Source: Thermoplasmata archaeon (GTDB lineage: Archaea > Thermoplasmatota > Thermoplasmata > Lutacidiplasmatales > UBA184). Taken from it: a stretch of 43,957 bases of DNA. The notes under the pieces are model-generated. The model was not told where the DNA came from. It made no database searches and was given only the letters and a program-made list of their open reading frames with translations. Location: the NCBI GenBank assembly GCA_035622275.1, contig DASPVQ010000028.1:1-43957 (forward strand), in the 5' to 3' direction. How positions within the stretch are numbered: position 1 is the first letter of the stretch; each line of letters begins with the position of its first letter. Position numbers and translations under genes: made by a program. This document shows, in pieces, positions 989 to 32,463 of this stretch.

Positions 989-2362
989 CTACGCGCCGCC
1001 GACCGCGGCGACGGCCGCGCGGACCGCGGCGAGGCCCTCGTCCGCCAGGGCCCGCGCCCGGGCGGGGTCCTTCGACTCCGCGAAGACCCGGAAGAGCGGC
1101 TCGGTGCCCGACGGGCGGAGCAGGACCCATCCGCCGGCACGGTAGGCCTTCACGCCGTCGATGGTCACGATCCGCTCGCTGCCCTCCCCCAGCGCGCGGG
1201 TCAGGCGCGCGAGCACCGCCTCGCGCAGCGCGACCGGACACGGCGCCTTCTCCTTCACGAGCGTGTAGCGGGGGATCCCGCCGAGCGCGTCGGCGAGCGA
1301 TCCGCCGGTCCGGGCGAGCAGATCGAGCATGCCGGCGGCGGTCATCGCGCCGTCGCGCGCGTACTGGAAGCGGGGGAAGATCAGCCCGCCGTTCTCCTCG
1401 CCACCGAAGACCGCGTGGCGTGCCAGCATCGCGTGGGTCACGCTCGGCGAGCCGACGCGGGTGTAGACGACGCTCCCGCCGGCGCCGGCGACCGCGTCCT
1501 CCACGCTCTGCGGCGCCGAGACCGGCGTGACGACGATCCCGCCGGGCTGGCGCTCGACGGCGTCCTTCGCGAGCAGCGTGAGGCTCTCCTCGCCGGGAAC
1601 GTAGCGGCCGCTCGCGTCGACGAAGATCGCGCGGTCGGCGTCGCCATCGTGGGCGATCCCGAGGTCGGCGCCGACCGCTGGCACCATGCGCTTCAGGTCG
1701 GCGAGGTTCGCCTCGGTGGGTTCGGACAGGTGGCCGGGGAACGTGCCGTCGACGTGGCCGTTGAGCGTGACCACTCGGCAGCCGAGGCGGCGCAGGAGGG
1801 CGGGGCTCGTGGGGACCGACGCGCCGTTCCCGCAGTCGAGCACGACCGTGAACTGGCGCGCGCGGATCCGCGCGACGTCGACCTGGGCGAGGATGCCGTC
1901 CACGTAGTGGCGCGCCCCGTCGGCCCGGGGGCTGATGTCGCCGACACGATCGAACGGGACCGTCGCGCCCTCCCCGCGCTCGACGGCCTGCTCGATCGCC
2001 TCCTCGGTCTCGCGCGACGCCTCGAGGCCGTCGGCCGCGATGCACTTGAGGCCGTTGAACTCGGGCGGATTGTGCGAGGCGGTGACGATCACGGCCAGCT
2101 GCGCGTCCAGGCGCGGGACGTTGTACTGGATCGCGGGCGTCGGCAGGATCCCGAGCTCGAGCACGTGGTGGCCCGCGAGCGCGAGCGTGGCGCTCACGAT
2201 GCGGGAGAACGCCGGGCTCGACGTCCGCCCGTCCCACCCGACGACGATCGGGCGACCGGGCGGCGCGAGCCGGGCGATCGCGCCCGCCACGCGGGTCACG
2301 AACGGCGCGTTCAGGGTCTCCCCGACGACCTCGCGGATGCCGTTGGTACCGAACAGCCGCAT
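989..2362 (-). CDS. glmM: Phosphoglucosamine mutase / phosphomannomutase family
   Basis: Alpha-D-phosphohexomutase, 457 aa, the normal length. It interconverts hexosamine or hexose 6- and 1-phosphates for UDP-sugar and cell-surface glycan synthesis. All four family motifs are present: the N-terminal FGTNGIRE, the catalytic phosphoserine loop TASHNPPEFNG, the metal-binding DGDADR, and the sugar- and phosphate-binding loops GEENGG and RPSGTEP. The ATG was chosen because MRLFGTNGIRE is the family N-terminus; the frame stays open upstream only as a GC-rich artefact. GlmM versus ManB specificity cannot be settled from sequence alone, but the archaeal GlmM-type FGTNGIR start favours the glucosamine form. 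It is divergent from the Mut7-C gene across a shared promoter region. Confidence 0.92.
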   Translation of the reverse strand: MRLFGTNGIREVVGETLNAPFVTRVAGAIARLAPPGRPIVVGWDGRTSSPAFSRIVSATLALAGHHVLELGILPTPAIQYNVPRLDAQLAVIVTASHNPPEFNGLKCIAADGLEASRETEEAIEQAVERGEGATVPFDRVGDISPRADGARHYVDGILAQVDVARIRARQFTVVLDCGNGASVPTSPALLRRLGCRVVTLNGHVDGTFPGHLSEPTEANLADLKRMVPAVGADLGIAHDGDADRAIFVDASGRYVPGEESLTLLAKDAVERQPGGIVVTPVSAPQSVEDAVAGAGGSVVYTRVGSPSVTHAMLARHAVFGGEENGGLIFPRFQYARDGAMTAAGMLDLLARTGGSLADALGGIPRYTLVKEKAPCPVALREAVLARLTRALGEGSERIVTIDGVKAYRAGGWVLLRPSGTEPLFRVFAESKDPARARALADEGLAAVRAAVAAVGGA

Positions 2363-2393
2363 GGGAACGGGTCCCTCGCCGGGGCCGACGGTC

Positions 2394-2406
2394 GACCCGT
2401 ATAATA
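2394..2406. promoter_or_regulatory. Shared TATA-like element between glmM and the Mut7-C gene
   Basis: TATAATA at 2400-2406 is the only A+T-rich element in the divergent gap. It lies about 40 bp upstream of the glmM ATG, which would give a short leader. It is only about 17 bp from the plus-strand ATG at 2420, which is tight unless that gene starts at the in-frame GTG at 2444. A 7-bp inverted repeat (ACGGGTC at 2367-2373, GACCCGT at 2394-2400) lies next to it. Confidence 0.5.
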
Positions 2407-2419
2407 CGAGCAAGGGTAA

Positions 2420-2911
2420 ATGGAACCGTCCGGCTCCGCGGGCGTGACGCCGCCCCGCTTCCTCGCCGACGAGATGCTCGGTCGGCTCGCGCGCTACCTG
2501 CGCATGACCGGCTGCGACACCGTCTATGTCCGCGGATGGTCGGACGAGGAGATCGCGCGTCGGGCCGAAGCCGAGCAGCGGATCCTCCTGACTCGGGATC
2601 GCGCCCTCGCCGATCGCGTCGCGCCGTCGGTTCTCCTCCGCACCGTGGCCGTCGCCGAGCAGTGGGCGGAGGTGCGACGCGCTCGGGCGGACCTGCCCGC
2701 CGAGGTCTCCTTCGAGCGCTGCACCCTCTGCAACGGCCCGCTCCGTCCGGCGCCCCGCCCGTCGGGGCACGATGCGTCGGGGTCGCAGGAGGAGCCGGGG
2801 GATCGCCCGATCTTCGAATGCATCGTCTGCGCCCATCGCTACTGGGAAGGCTCGCACACGCGTCGCGTGCGCGAGGCGGTGCGCCGCTGGGCGCTCGGGG
2901 CTCTGGGATGA
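2420..2911 (+). CDS. Mut7-C RNase-domain protein with zinc ribbon
   Basis: A 163-aa protein of the Mut7-C (DUF82) family, a PIN-like nuclease fold predicted to cut RNA. The N-terminal signature PRFLADEMLGRLARYLRMTG with the following D is clear, and acidic residues continue through SDEEIARRA and LTRDRALADR. The C-terminal half carries a four-cysteine zinc ribbon (CTLC and CIVC) ending in a basic stretch. The ATG at 2420 gives eight extra residues before the conserved block; a GTG at 2444 is an alternative that fits the TATA spacing better. The stop overlaps the next start (ATGA), so it is cotranslated with the tRNA methyltransferase, which suggests an RNA-related role. Confidence 0.87.
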   Translation: MEPSGSAGVTPPRFLADEMLGRLARYLRMTGCDTVYVRGWSDEEIARRAEAEQRILLTRDRALADRVAPSVLLRTVAVAEQWAEVRRARADLPAEVSFERCTLCNGPLRPAPRPSGHDASGSQEEPGDRPIFECIVCAHRYWEGSHTRRVREAVRRWALGALG

Positions 2912-3933
2912 TCCCGATCGTCGTCGAGATCTCCGGCGAGGCGCCGGAGCTCGCCGCGGCGGAGGCCGTCGCGGCCGCCGAGGTGCTGGGGGGGCGCGCG
3001 ACCCCCGGCATGAGAGAGGAACGTGAGGGGCTCGTCGCGGTCGACGTTCCGGATCGGGCGGCCGCGAGCTCGCTCGCGGCGCGACTGGGGCTCGCGCGAC
3101 GGGTCCTCGCACCGCTCGGCAGAGCCGGCGAGGTCGTCGACCGCCTGCGGGAGGAGGGCCGGACGGGTCGCTCGGCCGCCGTGCGCCGACTCGGTCGACC
3201 CTCCTCCGGGGAGCGCGATGCCGGCGTCCGGTGCGCCGGGGCGGCCTACGTGGACGGGGGCGGGAGGATCGATCTCGAGGCCCCGGCGCGCCGGTTCTGG
3301 CTCGCGGCGCCCGACGCGCTCGGCGACCGCCTCTTCGAGGAGGTCGGAGCCGTGGACCGCCGGTCGACCGGTGCGCGGCGCATGACGTCGCTGCCGTTCC
3401 AGCGGCCGGTCTCGCTCGCCCCCCGGTTCGCACGGGCGCTCGCGAACCTCGCCCGGGTCCGCTCCGGTGACCGGGTCGTCGACCCGTTCGTCGGCACCGG
3501 AGCGCTCCTCGCCGAGGCAGCCCTGCTCGGAGCCCGGATCTTCGGCTGCGACCGGGACCCCCAGATGGTGCGCGGGGCGCTGCGCAACTTCAGCCACCTC
3601 GGGGTGAGTGCCGAGGCGCTCGCGGTCGGCGACGCGGGCCGCGTGGAGCTCGGCGCGCCGGGGGCCTCGTTCGACGCTCTGCTGACCGATCCCCCGTACG
3701 GCCGCTCGTCCAGCACGGGGGGCGAGGGCGATGCGGTGATCGAACGCGTGCTGCCACGCTGGGCCGACCGCGTGCGTCCCGGCGGCCGGGTCGTGGTCGT
3801 GGTGCCCCGGCCGATCGCCCCGCCGGGGCCGGGCTGGGAGAGCCGTCTCGCCGTGCCGGTCCGGGTCCACCGGAGCCTGACCCGGGAGTTCCGCGTCTTC
3901 GAGCGGAGCGGCCCTACGGCCAGGCCAGCGTGA
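2908..3933 (+). CDS. tRNA (guanine-10-N2)-methyltransferase-like protein (Trm-G10/Trm11 family)
   Basis: A 341-aa SAM-dependent RNA methyltransferase, close to the usual length of archaeal Trm-G10. The N-terminal 150 residues are compatible with a divergent THUMP region. The C-terminal Rossmann domain has the SAM-binding motif DPFVGTGALLAEA, an acidic CDRDP at the end of strand 2, and the catalytic DPPYGRS motif of N2-guanine methyltransferases. The ATG overlaps the previous stop, which fixes the start. Its 3' end overlaps the convergent site-2 protease gene by 20 bp. Other Trm11/Trm14-like specificities cannot be excluded. Confidence 0.87.
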   Translation: MIPIVVEISGEAPELAAAEAVAAAEVLGGRATPGMREEREGLVAVDVPDRAAASSLAARLGLARRVLAPLGRAGEVVDRLREEGRTGRSAAVRRLGRPSSGERDAGVRCAGAAYVDGGGRIDLEAPARRFWLAAPDALGDRLFEEVGAVDRRSTGARRMTSLPFQRPVSLAPRFARALANLARVRSGDRVVDPFVGTGALLAEAALLGARIFGCDRDPQMVRGALRNFSHLGVSAEALAVGDAGRVELGAPGASFDALLTDPPYGRSSSTGGEGDAVIERVLPRWADRVRPGGRVVVVVPRPIAPPGPGWESRLAVPVRVHRSLTREFRVFERSGPTARPA

Positions 3934-5503
3934 AGGTCGTGCTCGCCGAGCCGCCGCCCGCGGGCGCGCAGAACTCCGAGACGGTCCAGTCGATCAGGGC
4001 GCCGACCGCCCGCTCGCTGTTGGAGAAGGTGACGCTGACGACGCCCGAGTTCGGCCGACCCGTGCCGTTGAGCGCGAAGTAGTCCGCGCTGGGGAGCGAG
4101 ACCGAGCCGCCGCCCAGCGTCACAGTGCGGCCGCTCGGCAGATGGAATACCCAGGTCGAGTTGGCCGCCCAGGCCGAGAGCGCGGCGCCCGTGAGGTAGG
4201 TCGGCGCGCTCGCGTTGCCCACCGAGACGTTCGCGACCGAGGTCGCGACCACGAAGCCGTGCTCGATCGGGTCCTGGTTGACCACGAGGAGCGACAGGTT
4301 CGCCGCGACCGCCGCGCCGGCCGGCGGCGTCGGGTAGGTCGTCGATGGGGTCTGGAGCGCGATCAGTCCCGGGGGCGTCGCGATCGGCGTGAGGACGAAG
4401 CCGGAGATGAGGACCCCCGCGACGAACGCGCCGAGCGCGTAGCGCTTCCAGTCGAGCGGGCTCAGGTCGTTGAGCGGCGGAGGGTGTCGGGCACCGAGGA
4501 CGAGGATCAGGATCCCGAAGAACAGCCAGCCGGCGTAGTAGAGCAGCCCGATCCCGAACAGCAGCGCGACGACCGCGTAGCTCACGTAGCGGGAGCGGTC
4601 GCCGAAGAGCGCGCGGAAGACGTGCCCGCCATCGAGCTGCCCCGCGGGCAACAGGTTGATCGCGGTGACGAGCAGACCGACCCACCCCGCGAGCGCGAGG
4701 GGCGACAGGCTCACCACCGACGGGGGAAAGAACAGCGACAGCGCGTACCAGAACAGCGGCGTGCCGATCAGCAGGTTGCCGTAGCTGACGCCCAGGATCG
4801 ATGGCCCGCAGTAGGTGAGCGGGAGCACGGGGGCGTGGATGCTCAGGTACAGCCCGGCGAGGGCGATCGGGATCGAGGCGGCGAACCCCGCGATCGGACC
4901 GGCCGCTCCGATGTCGAAGAGGGCCTTCTTGTCCGGGAACGGCTCGCGGATGCTGATGAACGCGCCGAATGTCCCGAACAGGAACGGCGGCGGGACCGGG
5001 ATGAAGTACGGCAGCGACGCCTCGACATGATGGCGCCGCGCGACCAGGTAGTGCGCGAGCTCGTGGACCCCCAGGATCGTCATCACGGGCAGGCCGAAGA
5101 AGAGCGAGCCCCAGGCGAGGTCGCTCCAGCCCAGCGCGCTCCCCCCGACGTAGGCCAGCCAGATCAGCGAGCCGGCGAACGTCGTGGTCGCGATCGTGCC
5201 CGCGAGCAGAACGATGTTGACCCACCCCTGGAACGGGCGGATCGTCGGGCGGCGCACGACCTCGACGAACTCCTCACCCCCCTGGCGCCGGAGGATCGGG
5301 ACGTAGCGCCGGGTCCACAGCTCCTGGCGCAGCGCGTCGAATCTCGCTTCGAGCGTGGCCGGGTCCACGTGGACGGCGAAGACGACGGACTGCGGCCCGA
5401 GTCGCGTCTCGTAGACCGGGAGGTACGTGCTCACGAGGGCCCGCAGGCGATCGAGCTCGCTGGCCGCACCCGAGCTGGGCAGCGGCCCGGCGGGAGCGCT
5501 CAC
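3914..5503 (-). CDS. Site-2 protease (M50) family membrane metalloprotease with C-terminal extension
   Basis: A 529-aa polytopic zinc metalloprotease of the S2P/M50 family, which cuts substrates within the membrane. The zinc motif HELAH is at residues 147-151 and the third ligand lies in NLLPAGQLDGGH (Asp291). Residues 1-90 form a soluble N-terminal domain with an HVDPATLEARF-type segment seen in other archaeal S2P proteins. After the last helix (about 362-378) comes a 140-residue region rich in Ser, Thr and Val with NxS/T sequons, which looks like a beta domain outside the membrane and is not part of the minimal protease. Start is GTG, 4 bp downstream of the DUF5611 stop, so the two are cotranscribed. 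Confidence 0.9.
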   Translation of the reverse strand: MSAPAGPLPSSGAASELDRLRALVSTYLPVYETRLGPQSVVFAVHVDPATLEARFDALRQELWTRRYVPILRRQGGEEFVEVVRRPTIRPFQGWVNIVLLAGTIATTTFAGSLIWLAYVGGSALGWSDLAWGSLFFGLPVMTILGVHELAHYLVARRHHVEASLPYFIPVPPPFLFGTFGAFISIREPFPDKKALFDIGAAGPIAGFAASIPIALAGLYLSIHAPVLPLTYCGPSILGVSYGNLLIGTPLFWYALSLFFPPSVVSLSPLALAGWVGLLVTAINLLPAGQLDGGHVFRALFGDRSRYVSYAVVALLFGIGLLYYAGWLFFGILILVLGARHPPPLNDLSPLDWKRYALGAFVAGVLISGFVLTPIATPPGLIALQTPSTTYPTPPAGAAVAANLSLLVVNQDPIEHGFVVATSVANVSVGNASAPTYLTGAALSAWAANSTWVFHLPSGRTVTLGGGSVSLPSADYFALNGTGRPNSGVVSVTFSNSERAVGALIDWTVSEFCAPAGGGSASTTFTLAWP

Positions 5504-5507
5504 GCCC

Positions 5508-5828
5508 CTAGTCCCCGGGGCCGCTCGCCGGCTTGCGCGCGCGGCGGGCCCGTTCCTTCGCGCTGTAGCCCGTGGCCTCTTCCAGGAACCGGTTGTAGCG
5601 GGCGATCGTCTCGCGGGCGACCGCCTCGGGCACCTTCGGGTTCATCGAGAGATCGATCTGGAGCTCGCGGCCTTCCCCGCGGGCCGTGAGCCGCTCGATC
5701 GCTCCCCAGCGAGCGGTGACCGAGTCCCCGTCGGCGACGACGCCCTCGAAGTGCGCTTGGAGGATGCCGGCGAGCGAGGTGCCCTCGAGGTTGCGCCGAT
5801 GCGTCGCCCGGACGGGATAGCGCTGCAC
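5508..5828 (-). CDS. DUF5611 family protein
   Basis: A 106-aa soluble protein beginning MQRYPVRATHRRNLEG and ending in a basic segment after FLEEATGYSAKERARRARK. This pattern (YPVKRGH, NLEG, then TGYxAKERKK) matches DUF5611, a small family I know from Thermoplasmata and their relatives; its function is unknown. Start is GTG; the MQ-YPV block is the family N-terminus. A GCTTTAA element lies about 29 bp upstream (5854-5860), so this is probably the leaderless first gene of a two-gene operon with the protease. Confidence 0.78.
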   Translation of the reverse strand: MQRYPVRATHRRNLEGTSLAGILQAHFEGVVADGDSVTARWGAIERLTARGEGRELQIDLSMNPKVPEAVARETIARYNRFLEEATGYSAKERARRARKPASGPGD

Positions 5829-5853
5829 GCTCGCACCGCGAACGGCTCGCTCG

Positions 5854-5860
5854 TTAAAGC
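5854..5860 (-). promoter_or_regulatory. TATA-like element for the DUF5611 gene
   Basis: GCTTTAA on the minus strand, centred 29 bp upstream of the GTG at 5828 in otherwise GC-rich sequence. The spacing fits a leaderless archaeal transcript. Confidence 0.55.
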
Positions 5861-5891
5861 TTCGTCCCAGCGCGCGGCGCCCGAGGACGCT

Positions 5892-6113
5892 CTACACGGT
5901 CTCGATTTCGAAGCGGAGCCGATACCCGCGCAGGCGCCGGGTGACCTCGTCGCACAGGTCGAGGATCTGCTCGCGGGTGGCCCCGCCCTGCCAGTCGTAG
6001 ACGAAGTCGTAGTTGCCCTGCGTCGGCTGGAAGCCGGCGGTCAACAGGCGCCCCGCGATCTCCGACGGCTTGGCCCCCTCGCTGTCGAAGGTCACGCGCA
6101 GGTACGTCTCCAC
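5892..6113 (-). CDS. Conserved small archaeal protein (73 aa), unknown function
   Basis: A 73-aa protein, METYLRVTFDSEGAKPSEIA at the start and a beta strand RYRLRFEIETV at the end. The layout (strand with FDSEGA, helix ending in GF, then YDFVYDW, helix, final strand) is that of a small ferredoxin-like alpha/beta fold. I recall similar short archaeal proteins with the SEG and YDF motifs, all uncharacterised. The GTG start is supported by a GCTTAAGC element 27 bp upstream that overlaps the coaD stop codon, giving a leaderless transcript. The frame remains open upstream in GC-rich sequence, but that part has no protein-like features and is antisense to nothing else than coaD's own frame shadow. 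Confidence 0.72.
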   Translation of the reverse strand: METYLRVTFDSEGAKPSEIAGRLLTAGFQPTQGNYDFVYDWQGGATREQILDLCDEVTRRLRGYRLRFEIETV

Positions 6114-6136
6114 GGTGGCGGCCAGCGCGGGGGCAG

Positions 6137-6144
6137 GCTTAAGC
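6137..6144 (-). promoter_or_regulatory. TATA-like element overlapping the coaD stop codon
   Basis: GCTTAAGC, centred 27 bp upstream of the GTG at 6113. It contains the TAA stop of coaD (6139-6141), so the small downstream gene seems to have its own promoter. Confidence 0.5.
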
Positions 6145-6930
6145 GGTTCGCGCGACGCGCCCCGTGCGGCCACCCCGAGCCGACGCCGGGGGCCGAACCA
6201 GGCGCGCGACGGCCCTTTGCAGCTCGGCGGGCGTGCGCGCGCGGACGACCACGGGGGCGAGGCGCACGCGCCGGCTGGCGAGGCGCAGCCGAACCCGCGA
6301 CGATCCCGACCGGGTGATCCGCAGTCGGAGCTCGGGGGCCGCGGACCCCCGTGCGACGCGGGGTCCGACGAACACGGCGCGGCGGAAGGCGCGACGTAGC
6401 CCCTCCTCGGCCGCGTGCCGGTCGTCCGGCCGTCGCGCGTCGACGGCCACGCGGATCCGAGCGCGGCGACGGCCGTTCCGATCGATCTCGTCCGCGCGGA
6501 TGCGGCGGGAACTGATCGGTTCGAGATCGTCGGCGAGCGCGAGGGGCACCACCCGGATCGGCACCGCGCCGCGTCCCCGTCGGCGTCGCTCGGCGTTGAC
6601 GGCCCGCCCACCCTGGAGCGTGTCCGCCGACACCACGAGCGCGGCGACCCCGTCGTCGATCGAGCCGCCGAACCGATCCGAGATCGGACGGATCTCCCAG
6701 CGCGCGCGCGGATAGCGCGCCGCGAGCCACCGGGCGAGCGCCCGACGCCGGACCGGGTACGGTTGCACACCCTCCGCCGTTGGCTTCGGGTGGGCGGTGA
6801 GGTAGGCCGGGGTCGTCAGGCCGATGGCGACGCGGGCCCCCGTGCGGAACGCCGTCGCGAGGAGGGCCTCGTGCCCGGCGTGCAGGTGGTCGAACGTGCC
6901 GCCGAGCACGACCCGGCCCGCGACGGTCAC
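6139..6930 (-). CDS. coaD: Phosphopantetheine adenylyltransferase, archaeal type, with C-terminal extension
   Basis: Transfers AMP to 4'-phosphopantetheine in coenzyme A synthesis. The nucleotidyltransferase HxGH motif is in GGTFDHLHAGHEALL (residues 9-23) and the second signature is the ISSRRIRADEID segment near residue 145, equivalent to the ISST/SSR motif. The archaeal enzyme normally ends near residue 150. This one is 263 aa, with about 105 extra residues starting at RIRVAVDARRPDDR, very rich in arginine and without a fold I recognise. Start is GTG with a GGAG-type ribosome binding site about 10 bp upstream. It follows the DUF2116 gene by 16 bp. Confidence 0.88.
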   Translation of the reverse strand: MTVAGRVVLGGTFDHLHAGHEALLATAFRTGARVAIGLTTPAYLTAHPKPTAEGVQPYPVRRRALARWLAARYPRARWEIRPISDRFGGSIDDGVAALVVSADTLQGGRAVNAERRRRGRGAVPIRVVPLALADDLEPISSRRIRADEIDRNGRRRARIRVAVDARRPDDRHAAEEGLRRAFRRAVFVGPRVARGSAAPELRLRITRSGSSRVRLRLASRRVRLAPVVVRARTPAELQRAVARLVRPPASARGGRTGRVARTA

Positions 6931-6946
6931 CGCGCTCCTCTCCCGC

Positions 6947-7132
6947 CTAATGGTACGTGACGAGGAAGACGATCAGGATGAGCGCCATCGCGCCGTAGAG
7001 GACGTACGTGTACATCTGCCGCGTCCGGAGCTGCGCCGCCCGCTTCGCCCGGCAGGCCTTGCTGCAGACCTCCTCGTCGGGGTCGCAGACCTTCCCGCAG
7101 ACCTTGCAGTGGCGATGGTCGTCCTCGGGCAC
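6947..7132 (-). CDS. DUF2116-type zinc-ribbon membrane protein
   Basis: A 61-aa protein with an N-terminal zinc ribbon (CKVCGKVC and CSKAC; the spacing C-x2-C and C-x3-C is that of DUF2116) followed by a basic stretch and one C-terminal transmembrane helix (about residues 41-59). It should be a small C-tail-anchored protein with the zinc domain in the cytoplasm. Function is unknown. Start is GTG; no ATG is available in frame. It is the first gene of a short operon with coaD. Confidence 0.82.
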   Translation of the reverse strand: MPEDDHRHCKVCGKVCDPDEEVCSKACRAKRAAQLRTRQMYTYVLYGAMALILIVFLVTYH

Positions 7133-7188
7133 GATGACCGGACGAGGGGGGCCGGGCGCTTAGCGTTGACCGGCGCGGCGGCGGCGCG

Positions 7189-10100
7189 CTAGGGGGCGCG
7201 GCGCGCGCGCCGCCGCTCGACCGGCTCGGGCTCGACCGTCTCCTCGCGGCCCTCGCTCGGGTCGAGCGGGTTCACCGGGTCGTCGAGCTCCGCGAAGCCG
7301 GCCCGCGCGCGGGCGATGCCGCGCGCGTCGCCGTCCGCGGCGGCCGCCGCGGCGCGGCTCGCGCGGCGCATCGACCGCGCGGCGGCATCCGAGGTCGGCG
7401 CGTCGAGGTCGTCGTCCGCCGCCGCCATCTGGCGCATGAAGTTGAGCCAGATCCGGCCCTGGTTGGCGATCGCGCTCTCCATGCGATCGCGCAGCTCGGT
7501 CGTCTGCTCGAGGAGCTCGCCCTCGAGCCGCCGCAGTTCGCGGCCATACTCCCGCCGGAACTCTTTCAGCCTCAGCTCGGCGTTCTGCGAGAGGCCCCCG
7601 CCCTTCTGCAGCTCGTCGACCTTCAGCCAGGTGTTGCGCACGAGCGGCACCATCCGCTCGCTCATGACGCCGAGCCGGCGGTCGAGCTCCTCGAGGTCGC
7701 GCCGCACGCTCTGCTCGACGTCGGCGATCGTCGTCTCCCGCTCGGCGAGCTGCCGCTCGAGCGTCTCGAGCCGGCCCGTCGCCGTCTCCTGCTGGGTCTT
7801 CAGGCGGGTCGCGACCTCGCTGAGGCGGGTGTCGATCGCCTTGAGCTCGTCTTTGCGCAGCGCCGCGATCGCGGCGCCGACCCGCTCGGTGACGGCGACC
7901 TCGAAGCCCGAGGAGTCGATCGTGCGCGCGAGCGCCTGGTCGACCTCGGTCTTGAAGCGGGCGAGCAGCTCGACGTAGGTGTCGCGGCCCTGGTCCTTCT
8001 CCTCGCGCAGCCGCTGGTCGATGTACGACTGCAGGCGGACCTGCAGGCCGGCGGTCGACTGGGTCTGGGCCTCGACCGCGCGCGCGATACGCGCCTCCAT
8101 CTCGACGCCGAGCCGGCGCTCGATCTGGGCGATCTGCTCCTTGCCGCCGGCGGCATCCTTCTCGCGGGCGGCCCCGAGGGCCGTGACCGCTGCCCCGTGC
8201 TTGGTCTCGAGGTCCCGGATCCGGCCGTCGACGAGCAGGCCGAGCCGCTGCTCGAACTCCCGCAGTTCCCGCACGCGCTTCGCGTCGAGCTCCGCGAGCC
8301 GCTCGCGCAGGAGATCGTGCACCCGCGCCTCGATCTGCTCGCGCAGCGCCGTGCCCTGCTCCTTCGCCTCCTGGACCTGGATCTCCATCTGGGCCACGAG
8401 GGCGGCCCGCAGCTCCTCCTCGCTGTGCGCGGAGCGCAGCCGCAGCTCCTCGACCGACCGCGCGATCTCGCTCCGCAGGAGCGCGACCGCCTGGTCGGCG
8501 GACTCCGAGGAGAGCCGGCGGGCCCGCTCGCCCAGCTCGGTGAGCTGGGGTTCGAGCGAGCGACGCACCATCTGGGCGATCTCCTCGGGCGGGGGGCTCG
8601 GGGTGACCACGGGCCGCGCCTCGACCGCGGCGAGACGGGAGGCGAGGTCGACCCGCACCGCCGCCAGCGCGCGGGTCTGGGCGTCGCTCGCCTCGCGCAG
8701 GCGACGGTCGAGCGTGGCGGTCGCCTTCGCGTCGGCGTCGAGCGACAGCGCGGTGAGCCGAGTGTCGAGCGACTTCGGGTCGGGCGGCGGCGGGATCGTC
8801 GCCGCGAGCTCGCGGTAGCGTTGGTCGACGTAGCCGCGCAGCCGCGACTCGGCGTCCAGCGATAGCGGTGCGGCCGCCGCCCCCGCCTTCGCCGGGACGG
8901 GGGGGACGGGCGTGGGCGCGAGCGCCGGCGAAGGGGCGGCCGCGGCCGGCGGGGCGGCGGCCGCTGGCGGCAACGGATCCGGAGCGCGGGCGGGCGACGG
9001 GGGGAGGGCGCCGGCGGGCAGCGTCGACGGATCGTCGCTGACCGAGACGGGCACCGCGATCGGGCCGGACGGTGGCATCGCCACTTCGGGCGGGCGCTGG
9101 AGCCACGGGGGGAGCTGGGCGGCCGCCGGCATCGGGGCGGGATCGAGACTCGCGGGGGCCGGTGCGTCCAGCGCCACCGGGCCGGCGGCCTCGGGGGCGG
9201 GGCGCGCCTGGAGGTACTGGCTGGCCCGCTTCGCGGCCTCGCCGCTCATCGGGATCGCGCGGCCCTTCGGGCGCGCGAGCAGGATCGCCGCGCTCTCCAT
9301 CGCCGTGCCGATCCGCCACATCTCCTTGCGGCGGTCGCGGCCCGCCTGGTGGTCGGCGTCCTCGAGGTGGTCCTTGAGTCGCGCCGCCTCCACGATGTCG
9401 ACGCGCCGGCTCACCTCGCCGACCTTCTCCTCGGCGTGATCGCGCACGTACTGCAGGACGAGCGGCAGCGGGTCCTTGCCCTTGGGCGGCGGCGGCTTGG
9501 TGAGGTCGCGCAGCGAGACCGGGGCGGCCTCCCAGGTCTGGATCCGCTTCTGGTGGCGATCACCCTGGGCCTCCCGCTCGGGCACGCGCATCAGCGCGAG
9601 CGCGAGCGGCAGCTGCTCGGCGAACTCGTGCAGGTTCACCTTGCCCTCGGGCAGGAAGTACGGGAAGACGAGGAAGGCGCCGAGCGCGATCAGGGAGGTC
9701 GGCAGGTAGCGGATCAGCTCGGTCACCGCGTCGATCGCCGCCGGCCACTGCTCGGCCGCCACGATCACGACCGGCTCGGTCGTCCCCCGGTGGAACAGGA
9801 ATCCCTCCCCGACCGCCTGGTAGACGGCGGGCTCCGGTTCGGCGCGTGGCCGGTCGGCGCCGGGGCGGCCGCCCATCGACGCCCACGCCTGAAGGACCGC
9901 CGGGCCGAAGGCCCCGCTCGACACGAGCGGCGCGGTCTCGAGCACGAGGGTCTTCATGCCCAGGCGCGGCCGGTCCTCGGTGGACAGGAACATCCGGCCG
10001 ACGCAGGTGTAGCGGCCGTTGCCGGCCGGATACAGGAACAGGTTCGGGTAGTACGACAGCGTCTGCGACGGATCCGGGTCCCAGTAATCGTGCGTGTCCG

Positions 10101-10275
10101 CGACGTTGACGGTGAGGTTCCCGACCAGGCGGATCGTCTCGAGGGTCTCGCGGCGACCCGGGAACTCCTCGGGGATCGTCGTGTAGCCCGGGCTCTCCGC
10201 CTCGTTGTCGACCTGGCGGCACCAGACGACCGCGACCGGAGCGAACCCGCTCGACGGGATCAGCTCAGCAGCCAT
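7189..10275 (-). CDS. Large coiled-coil protein of the vWA-GTPase operon
   Basis: A 1028-aa protein I do not recognise as a named family. Residues 1-250 form a globular domain with many conserved-looking aromatic and Gly positions (PGYTTIPEEFPG, YYPNLFLYPAGNGRYTCVG, RLGMKTLVLETA) and a hydrophobic stretch LIALGAFLVFPYFL near 195-208. Residues 250-355 are helical. Residues 356-470 are Pro/Ala-rich. Residues 475-960 are long heptad-patterned coiled coil, and the tail is acidic then basic (ERRRARRAP). The N-terminal domain is faintly like the adaptor (GAP1-type) domains of bacterial GTPase conflict systems, but I cannot confirm this. The ATG overlaps the GTPase stop (TGATG), so the two are translationally coupled. 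Confidence 0.85.
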   Translation of the reverse strand: MAAELIPSSGFAPVAVVWCRQVDNEAESPGYTTIPEEFPGRRETLETIRLVGNLTVNVADTHDYWDPDPSQTLSYYPNLFLYPAGNGRYTCVGRMFLSTEDRPRLGMKTLVLETAPLVSSGAFGPAVLQAWASMGGRPGADRPRAEPEPAVYQAVGEGFLFHRGTTEPVVIVAAEQWPAAIDAVTELIRYLPTSLIALGAFLVFPYFLPEGKVNLHEFAEQLPLALALMRVPEREAQGDRHQKRIQTWEAAPVSLRDLTKPPPPKGKDPLPLVLQYVRDHAEEKVGEVSRRVDIVEAARLKDHLEDADHQAGRDRRKEMWRIGTAMESAAILLARPKGRAIPMSGEAAKRASQYLQARPAPEAAGPVALDAPAPASLDPAPMPAAAQLPPWLQRPPEVAMPPSGPIAVPVSVSDDPSTLPAGALPPSPARAPDPLPPAAAAPPAAAAPSPALAPTPVPPVPAKAGAAAAPLSLDAESRLRGYVDQRYRELAATIPPPPDPKSLDTRLTALSLDADAKATATLDRRLREASDAQTRALAAVRVDLASRLAAVEARPVVTPSPPPEEIAQMVRRSLEPQLTELGERARRLSSESADQAVALLRSEIARSVEELRLRSAHSEEELRAALVAQMEIQVQEAKEQGTALREQIEARVHDLLRERLAELDAKRVRELREFEQRLGLLVDGRIRDLETKHGAAVTALGAAREKDAAGGKEQIAQIERRLGVEMEARIARAVEAQTQSTAGLQVRLQSYIDQRLREEKDQGRDTYVELLARFKTEVDQALARTIDSSGFEVAVTERVGAAIAALRKDELKAIDTRLSEVATRLKTQQETATGRLETLERQLAERETTIADVEQSVRRDLEELDRRLGVMSERMVPLVRNTWLKVDELQKGGGLSQNAELRLKEFRREYGRELRRLEGELLEQTTELRDRMESAIANQGRIWLNFMRQMAAADDDLDAPTSDAAARSMRRASRAAAAAADGDARGIARARAGFAELDDPVNPLDPSEGREETVEPEPVERRRARRAP

Positions 10276-11444
10276 CAGCTCCCCTTCGTGGCCCGACGGG
10301 CGAAGATCCGTTCGCACGCGCGCGCGAGGGGGAGCGTCGTGTTGACCATCACGGGGACGCCCATCGTCTGCGCCCCGCCGCTCGGAGCCTCGAGTCCGGT
10401 CTCCCCGATGAACAGCGGATGGCCCTCCCCGGTGGAGACCGCGCTCGAGACGAGGAAGACATCGTCCTTGACAGAGATCCCGCGGCCCTCCTGGGCGACC
10501 AGGATCGTCCCCATCCCCGCGCCGTCGCGGCGGAGCAGGAATTCGACCGGGTCGAAGGCGCTGTGGAAGGAGCGGTCGCGGACCGACTGCTCGACCTCCG
10601 TGTAGAACTCCTTGAGCTTGTCGGCCTTCGAGATCGCGATCACGAGCGGTACGTCGTGGCTCTTGACGTAGCGGAACACCCCGCGGGCGAGGTTGACCTG
10701 CTGGGCCTGGTCCCGCAGCGACGGGAGGGCCGGCGAGAGCAGCAGGATGATCGCGTCCGCCCCGTGGACGAAGCGGCCGAGCAGCGTGAGGCCCCGCCGC
10801 CAGAGGTCGCGCCGGTCGGGCCGCCACGAGTCGAAGTGCGGGATCACCCGGCAGCTCTGCTCGGAGACCTCCCCGTCGGCGCTCTCGATCCAGAGCCGGT
10901 CGTAGGTGAAGTAGTCGGCGATGATGCCGCCGGCCTCGTCGATCGTGTTCATCTCGAGCGGCCGGGAGCTTCCGTCGTTGGCCGTCGCGCCGAAGCGGAA
11001 GCGCAGCTTCATCTCGACGAACTGGTTGAATTTCGTGGGCAGCGGGTACTTCGTCAGCACGCCCTGTTCGTCGCGCCCCGCGCTGAGCTCGACCCACAGC
11101 TTGCGTCGGTCCTCCATGGGCCGGTTGACGTAGTAGCGCGTGGTCGTTTCCAGGCTGCCCTCGGGATCCGTGGGGTCGGTCGTCTCGTACGTCGTCTCCT
11201 CGAGCGCGACGTCGTTCTCGAGGTCGCCGTAGAGCGGCAGCTGCTCGCCGTCGGCGCGGGAGGGAATGTAGAGGATCGGGAGGTTCAGGCCGAAGTGGCC
11301 GGAGAGGAAGCGGAAGTACGTCGTCTTGCCCGAGGCGGGGATCCCGATCACCGCGATCCGGGCGGTCTCCACGCTCGGCTTCGCCGTGGAGCGCTTGGTC
11401 CCCGGGGCGCGGCGCGTCTTCGTGGTCACCTTGACCGCCGGCAT
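10275..11444 (-). CDS. TRAFAC-like GTPase with vWA and coiled-coil partners
   Basis: A 389-aa predicted GTPase. Motifs in order: Walker A GIPASGKTT (residues 34-42), DxxG as DEAG (169-172), base-specificity motif SKAD (272-275, in place of N/TKxD), and an SA motif as VSSAV (332-336). A long insertion between G1 and G3 separates it from ordinary small GTPases and resembles the GTPases found in multi-component bacterial regulatory or conflict operons. The basic N-terminal 25 residues may be disordered. Start ATG has a perfect GGAGG ribosome binding site overlapping the stop of the vWA gene. It sits between that gene and the coiled-coil gene, both tightly coupled. Confidence 0.85.
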   Translation of the reverse strand: MPAVKVTTKTRRAPGTKRSTAKPSVETARIAVIGIPASGKTTYFRFLSGHFGLNLPILYIPSRADGEQLPLYGDLENDVALEETTYETTDPTDPEGSLETTTRYYVNRPMEDRRKLWVELSAGRDEQGVLTKYPLPTKFNQFVEMKLRFRFGATANDGSSRPLEMNTIDEAGGIIADYFTYDRLWIESADGEVSEQSCRVIPHFDSWRPDRRDLWRRGLTLLGRFVHGADAIILLLSPALPSLRDQAQQVNLARGVFRYVKSHDVPLVIAISKADKLKEFYTEVEQSVRDRSFHSAFDPVEFLLRRDGAGMGTILVAQEGRGISVKDDVFLVSSAVSTGEGHPLFIGETGLEAPSGGAQTMGVPVMVNTTLPLARACERIFARRATKGS

Positions 11445-11452
11445 CTATCCTC

Positions 11453-12961
11453 CTACCGCATCTCCGCGAGGCATATCTCGATGAAGTCGAGCGCGCTCTC
11501 GACCGCGGGACCCTCCGTCGCGAGGTCGAGGCGGGTATCCTGGAGGAGGCCGAAGACCTCCTCGACCGCCTCCTCGTGTTTGGTCGCGGCGTCCTGGAGA
11601 TCGCCGTCGTTCGCGAGCCGGGTCAGCTGGTAGGTGCCCCGCAGCTCCATAAGCTTGCCGAACAGCTCCATCAACCGCTCGCGCTTGGTCGCCTCGGTCC
11701 CGTTCAGGCGGTGCTCGGTGTCGTCGATGAAGCGCACCAGGGTCTCCGTCTCCTTGTCGTTCTGCATCCGGGCCTGGAGCAGCGCCAGGCGCCGCAGGAT
11801 CTTCGGCTGGGTGGCGGCGGGCAGCTTCTCGGCCTCGGCCCACGCCTGGAGGAGGGCCCGCGCGGCCTCGACGATCGCGCGGTTGGAGTACTGGATGCGC
11901 GCCTCCCAGTACAGCCGCGTCACCGGTGGCAGCACCGCTGCGGCCTGGCCGAGCAGCGCGAGCGCGTGCTCGGGCTGGCCCGAGAGGTAGGCCTCGACGA
12001 CCTCGCCGAGCGGGCCGTAGCGCTCCTTGAGGTAGGCGGGGGTCGTGCCCCCGGTCGTCGCGACCACGTCGACCTCGAGATCCGGCGCCTCGGAGTAGCC
12101 GCCGTCGGGCGCGGCGCGCGCCGCCGCGCGCGCGCTGTCGATCCGGGACACGGTCGCGTGCTGCTGCGGCTCCTTGAGCGCGCGGGCGGCGTTCGCGGCG
12201 TGCAGCGCGAGCTCCTCGGGATGCAGCTCCTCCATCGGGCGGTCGTCGTCGTAGCCGACGTCGAGGAAGGCGTTGACCATCTGGGTGAACAGCTGCGAGC
12301 CGGTCGTGACCTCCTGGAAGGTGAAGGCGGGCGGGAGGCCGAACTCGGCGGCCCGGCTGCCCATCTGCCCGAGCAGGTAGTTCATCCGGACGGCGTCGAC
12401 GCCCTTGTCCTTCTCGGCCCCGTTGCCGATCCCGATGATGCGCAGCGTGAGGTGCGAGCCGCTCGGCAGCATGTACGGCACGAGGTCGATCCGCCCCTCC
12501 GGGATCCTCGGGGCGCCGGGCACCTGGACGTCGAAGCGGGTCGAGGCGTTGTCCCAGCCGTCCGTGACGAGCACGAGGTTGCCGTGGACGCCCTGGCTGC
12601 CCGTGCGCAGGAGGTCGGCGCCGACGGCGAGGGCATCCCAGATCGCCGAGCGGCCGCTCGGCGCGAGCAGCGAGATCAGGTTCTCGATGTAGGGGAGATT
12701 CTCCGGCCGGATCTCGGTGAGCGGCACGGGGACGCGCACGGTCTCCGTGAACGTGACGAGCCCGAAGAGCGAGCCCGACGCGGCGGCGTCCTGGAGGATC
12801 CGGAACACCGCGGTGCGCGCGACCTCGATCTTCTGCCGGTCGGGCTGGCCCGGTGTCGAGTCCGGCAGCGGCGCCAGCATGCTCTTCGAGAGATCGAGGA
12901 GCAGCACGTTGCGCTCGCGCAGGGCGGTCGCGGGCGGAGTGAACCCTGGGTCGTCGGCCAT
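11453..12961 (-). CDS. vWA-domain protein, first gene of the GTPase operon
   Basis: A 502-aa cytoplasmic protein with an N-terminal von Willebrand A domain. The metal site (MIDAS) is nearly complete: DLSKS at residues 23-27, a Ser instead of Thr at 105 in GRSAIWDAL, and Asp134 in VTDGWDN. Residues 250-500 are helical and resemble TPR-like repeats ([40 protein letters not shown]). There is no signal peptide. vWA domains of this kind commonly assemble protein complexes with P-loop NTPases; here the partner is the GTPase encoded directly downstream. The gene has an approximately 200-bp upstream region shared with divergent S17e. Confidence 0.88.
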
Positions 12962-12991
12962 CTCGGACGCCGAGCGGGCGACGCGAGCTCG

Positions 12992-13009
12992 GGGACCCTC
13001 TCAGGTCCC
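12992..13009 (-). promoter_or_regulatory. Hairpin in the presumed leader of the vWA-GTPase operon
   Basis: GGGACC and GGTCCC form a perfect 6-bp stem with a 6-nt loop, 31-48 bp upstream of the vWA ATG. An A+T-rich patch at 13047-13073 (including AAATACTC on the minus strand) is the only promoter-like sequence for this operon. If used, it gives a leader of about 80 nt that contains this hairpin. Confidence 0.35.
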
Positions 13010-13139
13010 GGGAGCCTCCCGATCGCTTCCGGCGCAGTGCACGACCAATGTTTACCCAAGTGTGAGTATTTGTGGCTTCCGACGGAACCGGAGGCGTCCG
13101 GCCGTTAGAGAACGGGTCCGGACCGGCGCCGGGGCAACG

Positions 13140-13147
13140 GTTATAAC
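13140..13147 (+). promoter_or_regulatory. TATA box of the S17e gene
   Basis: GTTATAAC centred about 29 bp before the S17e ATG, which is the expected spacing for a leaderless or very short-leader transcript. Confidence 0.7.
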
Positions 13148-13172
13148 TCGCACCCGGGTCCGAGCCGCCCGC

Positions 13173-13397
13173 ATGGGCAACATCCGCCAGACGTACATCA
13201 AGCGGGTCGCCATCGAGCTGATCCGCCACTACCCGGACGCGTTCACCGGCGACTTTGCGCAGAACAAGCAGAAGGTCCTCGAGCTCACCGACCTCGGCCA
13301 GTCGGTCGACGGCAAGGTCCAGGTCACCCACAAGAAGCTCGCGAACCGGATCGCCGGCTACGCGACCCGCTACGTCAAGCGCAAGCGCGGCACCTAG
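13173..13397 (+). CDS. rps17e: 30S ribosomal protein S17e
   Basis: A 74-aa small-subunit ribosomal protein specific to archaea and eukaryotes. The N-terminus [20 protein letters not shown] is the family signature, and the C-terminal [14 protein letters not shown] is basic as expected. Length is normal. It has its own TATA box and lies alone on the plus strand, ending 16 bp before the convergent aIF6 gene. Confidence 0.95.
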
Positions 13398-13413
13398 CCG
13401 CGCCCGCGGCCCG

Positions 13414-14079
13414 CTACTCGAAGACCTGCAGCCCTTCCTGCAGGTGGGCGACCTCGACCGCGGTCGTCGGTCGGCCGATCAGGAGCCCCCGGGAGTTGGC
13501 GACGACGCACGCGCCGACGATCGGCACGCCGAAGTTCGCGGTCGATCGGTGGACCGGGACCCCGAGGACCTCCCGGGCGACCGCCACCTCCCGATCGGTG
13601 GTCTTCGGATGGACGATCGCGCCGCGGTTGGTCGCGAGCCCGGCCATGCCGACGGTGCCGAGGCCAGCGAGCGTGCCCCGCCGCACGGGCACCGCGAGGG
13701 CGCGCGCGATTTCCGCCACCGCCTCGTTCGACAGCTCCGGGTGGACGAGCGCGCCCGCGTCGTTGGTGAGCACGTTGTTGCCCATCGCGTTCAGGCGCTG
13801 GCGGACCACGGCCACCGGGCCGAACGCCTCGAGCGCCCGTCGCTCGCCCGGGTCGAGCTCGTCGCCGACGACGACGCCGTGGGAGTTGAGGGCGACGAGC
13901 GCGCCGACCACCTCGCTGTCCGCGACGTTCGTGCGGACCACCCGGACCCCGAGCACCCGCTCGACCTCGCGCTCGATCGGGGCGTGGGCGCTCGGCGGAA
14001 CGAGCGCGGTCGTCTCGCCGGCCCGCAGGTAGACTCCGAGATAGGGACTGCCCCCGAAGAGCGTCCGACCGACCGGCAA
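13414..14079 (-). CDS. eif6: Translation initiation factor aIF6
   Basis: A 221-aa anti-association factor that binds the large ribosomal subunit. The pseudo-fivefold repeats are visible as VVVGDELDP, NVLTNDAGALVHPELS, GAIVHPKTT and GVPIVGACVVANSRGLLIG, and the length matches the family. Start is a TTG that gives MPVGRTLFGGSPYLGVY; the GSPYLGVY block is the normal N-terminus, so a few extra residues may be present, but no ATG or GTG is available near it. It is the last gene of the S19e operon, a conserved archaeal order. Confidence 0.93.
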   Translation of the reverse strand: MPVGRTLFGGSPYLGVYLRAGETTALVPPSAHAPIEREVERVLGVRVVRTNVADSEVVGALVALNSHGVVVGDELDPGERRALEAFGPVAVVRQRLNAMGNNVLTNDAGALVHPELSNEAVAEIARALAVPVRRGTLAGLGTVGMAGLATNRGAIVHPKTTDREVAVAREVLGVPVHRSTANFGVPIVGACVVANSRGLLIGRPTTAVEVAHLQEGLQVFE

Positions 14080-30219: not shown

Positions 30220-32463
30220 ATGCTCGGCGGCGGCGTCATCCCGCGCCGCCCGTACCTGCTCGTCGGACCGGCCGGCACCGGCAAGTCGACGCTCGCGATC
30301 GAGTTCCTGTGCGAGGGCGCGCGCCGCGGCGAGCGCGTGCTGCTCGTCACGCTCGAGGAACCCCCGAACGAGATGCGCGTGAACCACCGGGGGCTGTCGA
30401 GCGAGTTCGACCGGGTCGACGTCTTCGACGCGATCCCCGACGTGATGCGTTACGAGCGCGTTCCGTTCAAGGACATCTCGGCGGTCCGACAGGCGATGCC
30501 GTTCGGGCACGTGCCGCTCGTCATCCGGCGCACTCCCGAGCTCACCGGGGTCGAGGTGACGATCACCGCGCTCGAGCAGATGCTGCGCAGTGAGGTGGCG
30601 CGCAAGGGCTACACGCGCGTCGTCATCGACTCGCTGACCGCGTTGCAGTACTTCTGCATGAAGGGATTCAACGAGGTCGCCGGCGCGCAGATGTTCCTGC
30701 GCTTTCTCTCCGATCTCCGGGTCACGACGTTCCTCACGGTCGAGTCCCCGCTCGAGGACGTCGACACGACCGAGCGCGCGCTCGCGCGCGGCGAGATCCG
30801 CCTCTTTCGCTGGGAGCTCGACGGCAAGACCGTTCGGGCGATCGGCGTCGAGAAGCTGCGCGGCGGCTCGCACGACGTGCGCCTGCATCCCTACCGCATC
30901 GGACCGCAGGGCATCGACGTGCAGCTCGGCGTCACGATCTCGCGCGATACCCGGCGCATCATCGAACCGACGCCCCTGGTCGAGCTCGCCGTGACCGTGC
31001 CGTCCGGCGCGGTCGGCTCGCCGCTCGACCCGCTCACGGACGAGGTCGCGGACCTCGTGGCCGTCGGCGCGGACGTCGGCGCCATCCGGACGGAGATCGA
31101 GGCCGCGCTCGATGCCGTGAACCGCGGGGACCGCGTCGCCGCCTCGGGCCACATCGCGGCCGCCTCGGCGCTCAGCATGGATCTCGCGGGCGGCTACCGT
31201 GCTCCCGGCGTCGACGCCCCGAGCACGGGTTCCGATCCCGGCTCGATCGCCCGGCGCCGGATCATCGCCCGCGGCGACTCGGTGCGGGCTGGGGTCGCCC
31301 CGACGGAGCTCCCGGCAAGCGCCGAGCTCGAGCCGCAGCTGCGCCGGGTGTTGGGCGCGCTCCCCCGCGGTCCGCCCGCGGCCAGCGTGTCGCCGGCGCC
31401 GTCTCCGCCGGCCGTGGCGCCGGTGCCGGGGGTTCCGGCGCGAGAGGTCCCCAGCCCGAGCGCACCGCTCCCGCCGCCGGCCACCCTCGTCGCTCCCCCC
31501 GCGCCGCCGGCTCCCAACCCCATCGCGCCGGCGTCGGTCGCCCCGCCGACCCCGACCCCGGGCCCGGCGGCGGCCCCCGTCCCGAGGCCCGCCCCGACTC
31601 CCTCGGTCGCGGCCCCGGCTCGCGCTGGGGCGGAAGCGGCGGCGGCGCCCGCGAGTCCGTCGCCGATCCCTCTCGCGAACCCCGCACCCACGGCCCCGAC
31701 GCCACCACCCCCCGTGGTGACGGCTTCCGTGGTCACGCCGCCGTCCCCTCCACCGCCCGCGCCCGCACCGCCCGCACCGCGGACGGCGGCCGCTCCGCCC
31801 CAGCGTCCTCCCGCTCCCCCCTCCCCACCGATGCTCCCCGCGCGACACGCGCCGCCGCCGCCTCCACCGCCTCCCGCTCCCGAGCGCCCTCCGCCGCCGG
31901 CCGCACGCCAGCCACCGCCGCCGCTACCCAGTCCGCCCTACGTGGCGAGGGCTCCGCCCCCGGCCGCACCGCCGGTGGCGAGCCCGCCCCCTCCGCCGTT
32001 GCCCATCGCCCCCCCGCCAGTGCCCGCGGCTCCGCTCCCGGCCGCTCGCGCCCCCACCGGCGCGGCCGCAGCCGCTCCGATCCAAGGCTCCGAGGCCGCC
32101 GCGGCCCCGACGCCCGCCACGGCACCGGCCCCGGTGCCCTCCGAGCCGGCGGGCCCGCCGCGGCGACAACGCAAGCGGGCGGCGAAGGCGGGCAAGCGCT
32201 CCAACGAGCCGGCCACCGGTCCGCCGCCTCCCGAGGACGCGGCGGCGACGGCGGGCACCGGGCCCGCCGCCCGCGAGGGCGATGCCGAGGCAGAGGCCGG
32301 CGTGACGGATGCCGCGACCGGCCGCAGGCGGTCCGCGCGACGACGCAGGTCGGCGACGGCCGCGACGGCCGAGCCCGCGCCGGCCCCCGGTCCTTCGGGC
32401 ACCCCGCCCGAGCCGCCGCCCGCCCCGGCCCCGTCGGAGAGTGCGCCGCCCGAGGCAAAGTGA
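30220..32463 (+). CDS. KaiC/RAD55-family ATPase with long proline-rich tail
   Basis: RecA-fold ATPase, 747 aa from the first ATG. Walker A GPAGTGKST (residues 16-24), catalytic Glu pair in LLVTLEEPP, Walker B RVVIDSLTAL, and a KaiC-type core to about residue 245. Residues 270-330 are helical; from about 385 to 650 the chain is mostly Pro and Ala, with runs of seven prolines, ending in basic then Pro-rich sequence. The usual N-terminal block RISTGNAGLDT lies upstream of the ATG in the same frame (30187-30219), yet no standard start exists back to the TGA at 30088. The true start is therefore unknown or the sequence has a frameshift. It overlaps the next ATPase gene (GTGA). Confidence 0.82.
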   Translation: MLGGGVIPRRPYLLVGPAGTGKSTLAIEFLCEGARRGERVLLVTLEEPPNEMRVNHRGLSSEFDRVDVFDAIPDVMRYERVPFKDISAVRQAMPFGHVPLVIRRTPELTGVEVTITALEQMLRSEVARKGYTRVVIDSLTALQYFCMKGFNEVAGAQMFLRFLSDLRVTTFLTVESPLEDVDTTERALARGEIRLFRWELDGKTVRAIGVEKLRGGSHDVRLHPYRIGPQGIDVQLGVTISRDTRRIIEPTPLVELAVTVPSGAVGSPLDPLTDEVADLVAVGADVGAIRTEIEAALDAVNRGDRVAASGHIAAASALSMDLAGGYRAPGVDAPSTGSDPGSIARRRIIARGDSVRAGVAPTELPASAELEPQLRRVLGALPRGPPAASVSPAPSPPAVAPVPGVPAREVPSPSAPLPPPATLVAPPAPPAPNPIAPASVAPPTPTPGPAAAPVPRPAPTPSVAAPARAGAEAAAAPASPSPIPLANPAPTAPTPPPPVVTASVVTPPSPPPPAPAPPAPRTAAAPPQRPPAPPSPPMLPARHAPPPPPPPPAPERPPPPAARQPPPPLPSPPYVARAPPPAAPPVASPPPPPLPIAPPPVPAAPLPAARAPTGAAAAAPIQGSEAAAAPTPATAPAPVPSEPAGPPRRQRKRAAKAGKRSNEPATGPPPPEDAAATAGTGPAAREGDAEAEAGVTDAATGRRRSARRRRSATAATAEPAPAPGPSGTPPEPPPAPAPSESAPPEAK

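Follow-up and report, generated by a model that had tools for sequence, protein, structure and literature searches.

Gene organization of the locus

The locus studied here raises two questions: whether three adjacent genes, encoding a vWA-domain protein, a GTPase and a large coiled-coil protein, constitute a single unit, and whether such a unit serves defence or the organization of the cell. The window, by which we mean the whole 43,957-nucleotide stretch of DNA analysed, is a contig in a 1.73-Mb archaeal genome. Its host group is Candidatus Lutacidiplasmatales, which includes Candidatus Lutacidiplasma silvani and UBA184 (PMC9287336). Elsewhere, the window encodes a 1526-aa protein consisting mostly of TPR repeats (35068-39648); near it, 30220-32463 encodes a KaiC-family ATPase and 41019-42188 a zinc-ribbon SPFH protein.

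The three genes were confirmed to lie on the minus strand in the order vWA protein (502 aa, 11453..12961; Pfam VWA_2, E 1.8e-9, conserved among relatives), predicted TRAFAC-type P-loop GTPase (389 aa, 10275..11444; assigned by its motifs and by a profile match to a DO-GTPase2-like set) and large protein (1028 aa, 7189..10275; homologs in a set of 66 loci). The last of these comprises an N-terminal region, a Pro/Ala linker, a coiled coil and a short tail. The translational coupling described in an earlier note on this DNA agrees with the sequence: a GGAGG ribosome-binding site (TAGGAGGATAGATG, 11449..11453, minus strand) overlaps the vWA stop codon, and the stop codon of the GTPase gene overlaps the start of the large-protein gene in a TGATG (10273..10277, minus strand). 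TGATG-type overlaps were found again at most of the homologous junctions. Because 66 homologous loci exist and dN/dS in close pairs is approximately 0.05-0.28 for the vWA protein, the GTPase and the N-terminal region, a sign of purifying selection, the reading frames are coding beyond chance. Searches of Pfam, NCBIfam, PADLOC, PHROGs and PDB with the single sequences placed the vWA domain alone, and the GTPase and the large protein both stayed below every curated family cut-off in Pfam, NCBIfam and PADLOC.

Distribution, synteny and loss

Within the family of Lutacidiplasmatales to which the window genome belongs (f1), the GTPase was found in 51 of the 62 sampled genomes, the window genome included, and in all seven genera. 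Across a class sample of 300 Thermoplasmata genomes it was not found outside f1, four other genomes gave short P-loop matches only, and the distribution of the N-terminal region of the large protein mirrors that of the GTPase. In a phylum sample of 390 genomes, the one match beyond f1 was a marginal one to the P-loop (E 8.5e-4). A scan of the genomes of 85,000 species with a single-protein query, whose reach is limited to close relatives, returned 66 loci, in Thermoplasmata MAGs together with two further records, whose titles are Euryarchaeota and simply 'bacterium'. No copy of the trio was found in phages, plasmids or viral contigs.

Every locus with a sufficient length of DNA carries the three genes side by side. 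This linkage, together with the shared presence and absence across f1, bears out the proposal that they form a co-inherited archaeal three-component unit. The site itself is mostly fixed. In approximately 40 loci the trio is bounded on one side by an S19e-PDCD5-L31e-eIF6/S17e block and on the other by a short transmembrane protein and then coaD; the site edges in the window, assigned by synteny, are the divergent gene for ribosomal protein S17e (13173..13397, plus strand; also a Pfam S17e match) and the gene for a short CxxC and transmembrane protein (6947..7132, minus strand). The deeper genera keep this setting wholly or in part, and in genus g6 the trio is still linked and the flanking marker genes were not found.

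Eight genomes from the genus of the window genome lack the GTPase, the N-terminal region and the vWA protein alike. Six of these operon-less genomes were examined, and in all of them only 127-215 bases lie between S17e and the transmembrane gene. The six cluster inside the genus on a tree of flanking genes (FastTree), which implies that the trio was lost as a whole. Most likely it was present in the family ancestor and was lost in its entirety once or twice, support for one loss over two being weak. The operon is therefore dispensable, having been lost in one or two clades. One further negative genome (G189) is explained by an assembly break, since its vWA gene lies at a contig end. Two loci carry interrupted GTPase genes, namely an in-frame stop in L087 (3161-3163) and a frame break with Ns in L096 (approximately 7127-8536), each being either a decayed copy or an assembly error.

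The earlier note had seen no obvious effector, and our survey concurs: none was found beside the trio, and there is no conserved fourth gene, the downstream inserts being mutually unrelated except for a TrmB-type regulator. This regulator (approximately 369-436 aa) separates the operon from the transmembrane protein in L061, L066, L067, L069 and L059, which form one subgroup; the copy in L066 was confirmed by Pfam.

Evolutionary rates

The GTPase evolves slowly. Its dN/dS in close pairs is approximately 0.05-0.14, and its identity exceeded that of eIF6 in 12 of 13 pairs and that of S19e in 10 of 11 pairs. The vWA protein and the N-terminal region are conserved near the level of ribosomal proteins, and the coiled-coil part evolves fast. 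Across 23 genomes, with ribosomal distance removed, partial correlations within the trio were 0.77-0.83, and those with or among syntenic neighbours were 0.01-0.43; these values are descriptive, as pairwise distances are not independent. Such rate covariation and slow evolution fit a single complex or pathway and not an arms race. The trio is operon-like, co-inherited, co-lost and co-evolving, under purifying selection and at a mostly fixed site.

The company of S17e, eIF6, L31e and S19e could mean that the trio is a ribosome-linked GTPase module, and ribosomal genes do adjoin it in most genomes. We regard this reading as very improbable. The trio is limited to one family and was lost in some clades that retain an intact ribosomal cluster, it lies on the strand opposite S17e, these flanking genes were not found beside it in genus g6, and the rates of its members co-vary beyond the ribosomal signal.

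The GTPase and its nearest relatives

Among 42 relatives, the GTPase has a near-invariant Walker A/G1 motif (GIPASGKT, residues 34-41, 11322..11345) and invariant G3/Walker B (DEAGG, residues 169-173, 10926..10940) and G4 (SKAD, residues 272-275, 10620..10631) motifs, all on the minus strand; an SSA motif follows at residues 333-335. Both features that had first drawn attention to it, the SKAD motif and a long insertion, are present, the latter giving a spacing of 127 residues between G1 and G3. By its G1, G3 and G4 motifs, the protein is predicted to be a P-loop GTPase of TRAFAC type that binds and hydrolyses GTP. Its structure model is poor (pLDDT 50.6), and the Foldseek matches of this model to a kinesin motor, YcjX and Nog1 were for that reason not relied on.

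Profile comparison tentatively placed the GTPase nearest to the GAP1-linked DO-GTPase2 proteins of another family of the class, f19, with a probability of 93-94 versus 66-83 for three housekeeping control families. A search with the GTPase HMM also ranked f19 DO-GTPases first, as the nine best among 839 ORFs. Together with the Pfam and NCBIfam searches, the comparison with the control families upholds the view that the GTPase does not belong to a known housekeeping family. The Pfam DO-GTPase2 family (PF19993) was matched weakly by 10 of the 42 members, with a best E of 0.013 and under the 27-bit cut-off, and the GTPase of the window itself did not match it. Kaur et al. 2020 (PMC7159879) define DO-GTPase2 proteins by a Glu that is conserved in Walker B. 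The window family has an invariant D169-E170-A-G-G, whose E170 may be this Glu, and the f19 GTPases have D-x-A-G-E.

One f19 locus (L176) resembles the trio in holding its nearest GTPase relatives in an operon-like order of GTPase followed by a large partner. It differs in that the N-terminal region of the GTPase looks transmembrane, the partner is 550-600 aa with no long coiled coil, ESCRT-III-like genes adjoin, and no vWA gene was seen. The DO-GTPase2-GAP1 pair in this locus (1767-13638) lies next to Snf7 (ESCRT-III; E 5.8e-7), a Vps4-like AAA ATPase, a protein kinase and a metallophosphatase, which hints at a joint action of GTPase-GAP1 and ESCRT-like membrane remodelling in f19 archaea. 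GTPase-GAP1 pairs also occur in L175 and L177 of the same family. In a third family of the class (f8; L108 and L109), two DO-GTPase2 genes accompany an HSP70-vWA fusion, a second HSP70, a GrpE-like gene and a large zinc-ribbon protein.

The vWA protein

The vWA domain spans approximately residues 18-240 and lies above the Pfam cut-offs (VWA_2, E 1.8e-9; VWA, E 1.4e-6), and the C-terminal half of the protein is helical and terminates in a conserved AEMR. A MIDAS is present, and the description of a nearly complete metal site was apt. Motif 1 is DLSKS (residues 23-27, 12881..12895), conserved in the complete relatives and of the form DxSxS; the motif 2 region is GRSAIWD (residues 103-109, 12635..12655), with Ser in place of the canonical MIDAS Thr; and motif 3 is TDGWDN (residues 133-138, 12548..12565), with its TDG Asp in place and one variable position among 28 sequences. 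All three are read on the minus strand.

A MIDAS vWA protein next to a P-loop NTPase follows the general MoxR-vWA pattern (PMC7159879), and the vWA protein also gave a weak match to the cobaltochelatase-type vWA (E 1.2e-4, below cut-off). Both observations would suit a co-chaperone or maturation module, in which the GTPase and the vWA protein insert a metal or assemble a specific complex, in the manner of MoxR-vWA or metallochaperone pairs, and the coiled coil is a docking platform. The trio further resembles MoxR-vWA ternary systems in combining a vWA protein, an NTPase and a large third protein. However, its NTPase has SKAD and is GTPase-like, unlike the AAA+ MoxR, and the genes around the trio, which encode ribosomal proteins, CoaD and a membrane protease, include none for a client enzyme. 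A maturation role thus appears unlikely.

The large protein

The conserved N-terminal region (residues 1-350, 9226..10275, minus strand), delimited by alignment, gave a good AlphaFold2 model (pLDDT 82.9, pTM 0.85), in which elements in a longin/PAS-like order (residues 13-133) are followed by an alpha/beta domain (149-257) and then by helices. We read the strand, helix, three strands and helices modelled for residues 13-133 as the order of longin/PAS-like domains. Pro makes up 27% and Ala 28% of the linker (residues 351-480), and for residues 480-576 heptad periodicity was not significant. The coiled coil itself (residues 577-959, 7399..8547, minus strand) contains one proline and has a heptad periodicity that was equalled by 1/500 and 2/500 shuffles. 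A coiled coil had been announced for this 1028-aa protein and is there, at a length of approximately 380 residues and not 480.

The suggestion that the N-terminal region might be a GAP1-type adaptor failed all sequence and profile tests. No Pfam match to GAP1 was found among 33 members, hhalign against GAP1 gave probabilities of 0.2-3.5, hhalign with sub-domains was equally unsupportive, and GAP1 ORFs ranked 22 and lower in a profile search with the N-terminal region. A GAP1-N2 pattern spotted by eye was rejected, as hhalign with controls, hhalign with sub-domains and hmmsearch did not support it. A viral fold search gave no match.

A single Foldseek match to the N-terminal model fell below 1e-3, namely chain C of 7mge (E 6.2e-4, probability 0.63, TM-score 0.21), an entry for C9orf72-SMCR8-WDR41 whose chain C we take to be C9orf72. 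An archaeal longin, the Lokiarchaeal 8yqg, appears in the same list (E 0.39). The C9orf72 match may be fortuitous, given its TM-score, its probability and the absence of any other C9orf72 or DENN chain from the best 50 matches. DENN modules are longin-DENN GTPase regulators (PMC3521125). The region shares with such regulators (C9orf72, SMCR8, folliculin) a longin-like order of strands and helices followed by an alpha/beta domain and helices, but there is no sequence similarity, and the longin-DENN regulators pair with Rab, Rag or Arf, whereas the trio has a TRAFAC GTPase, which differs from these in type. The modelled resemblance is a weak lead and not a result. That the N-terminal region could be a prokaryotic longin-DENN-like regulator of a dedicated TRAFAC GTPase, with the operon supplying a resident coiled-coil tether or scaffold gated by GTP, strikes us as a long shot, slightly less probable than the maturation role.

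Comparison with GTPase-GAP1 conflict systems

The earlier note knew of no described archaeal version of such a combination. This appears to hold for the trio as such, for which a literature search yielded only Kaur et al. 2020 (PMC7159879) and a PSP paper. It does not hold for GTPase-GAP1 systems, which are reported as 'present in a few archaea', with Cuniculiplasma named (Kaur et al. 2020, PMC7159879), and of which we found DO-GTPase2-GAP1 loci in the same class as the window genome. The likeness to the DO-GTPase2/GAP1-N2 systems of Kaur et al. lies in a TRAFAC P-loop GTPase whose gene directly precedes that of a large partner beginning with an alpha/beta region, in the vWA proteins that some of them include and in their occurrence in Thermoplasmatota (PMC7159879).

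The trio could accordingly be a divergent GTPase-centric conflict system (DO-GTPase plus GAP1) directed against invaders, a reading favoured by the gene order, the nearness of its GTPase profile to the f19 GAP1-linked GTPases, the weak DO-GTPase2 matches and the canonical systems in the class. The differences are nevertheless considerable. The trio is without a sequence-recognizable GAP1 (Pfam, HMMER and hhalign found no GAP1-N/M in the N-terminal region), and no effector, EAD, FNIII or GASH component was seen; a long coiled coil replaces GAP1-C. The trio is single-copy, immobile and vertically inherited, and the variable effector or sensor parts and mobile neighbourhood typical of GTPase-GAP1 systems were not found, the synteny being fixed. 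No PADLOC model matched and no mobile context was seen. Since no effector and no phage copy were found, the site is fixed and evolution is slow, defence is unlikely, and we rate it no higher than the maturation role. An organizational role had been proposed as being as likely as defence; the role itself is favoured, and the parity does not stand, as fixed synteny and slow evolution oppose defence.

Proposed function

We prefer to read the trio as a scaffold module that is resident in Lutacidiplasmatales and controlled by GTP; its mechanism and cellular role are inferred, and we assign this reading roughly even odds. The TRAFAC GTPase would act as the switch, which the N-terminal head of the large protein would read or regulate. 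The coiled coil may oligomerize to form a rod or spacer, to which the flexible Pro/Ala linker would tether the head, and the vWA protein may bind a partner or complex through its Mg2+ MIDAS site. Hydrolysis of GTP would then control the assembly or release of a larger structure, possibly near the membrane or cytoskeletal.

Two to five genes of the FtsZ/tubulin family are present per genome in the window genome and its relatives, with or without the operon, and there is consequently no sign that the operon replaces the division machinery. Compensation for a missing FtsZ was rejected on the same grounds.

Two of the three protein families have no curated match, although their genes rank with the better conserved ones of this archaeal family. 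If the longin-DENN-like reading were true, non-Asgard archaea would possess a GTP-gated tether or scaffold, and the GAP1 of bacteria and archaea might share a fold class with the eukaryotic DENN regulators; a real resemblance would bear on the origin of eukaryotic GTPase regulators. As a GTP-gated scaffold, the trio would represent a cell-organizing switch in uncultured acidophilic soil archaea, and the vWA/GTPase/partner logic of bacterial conflict systems would also serve resident cell functions.
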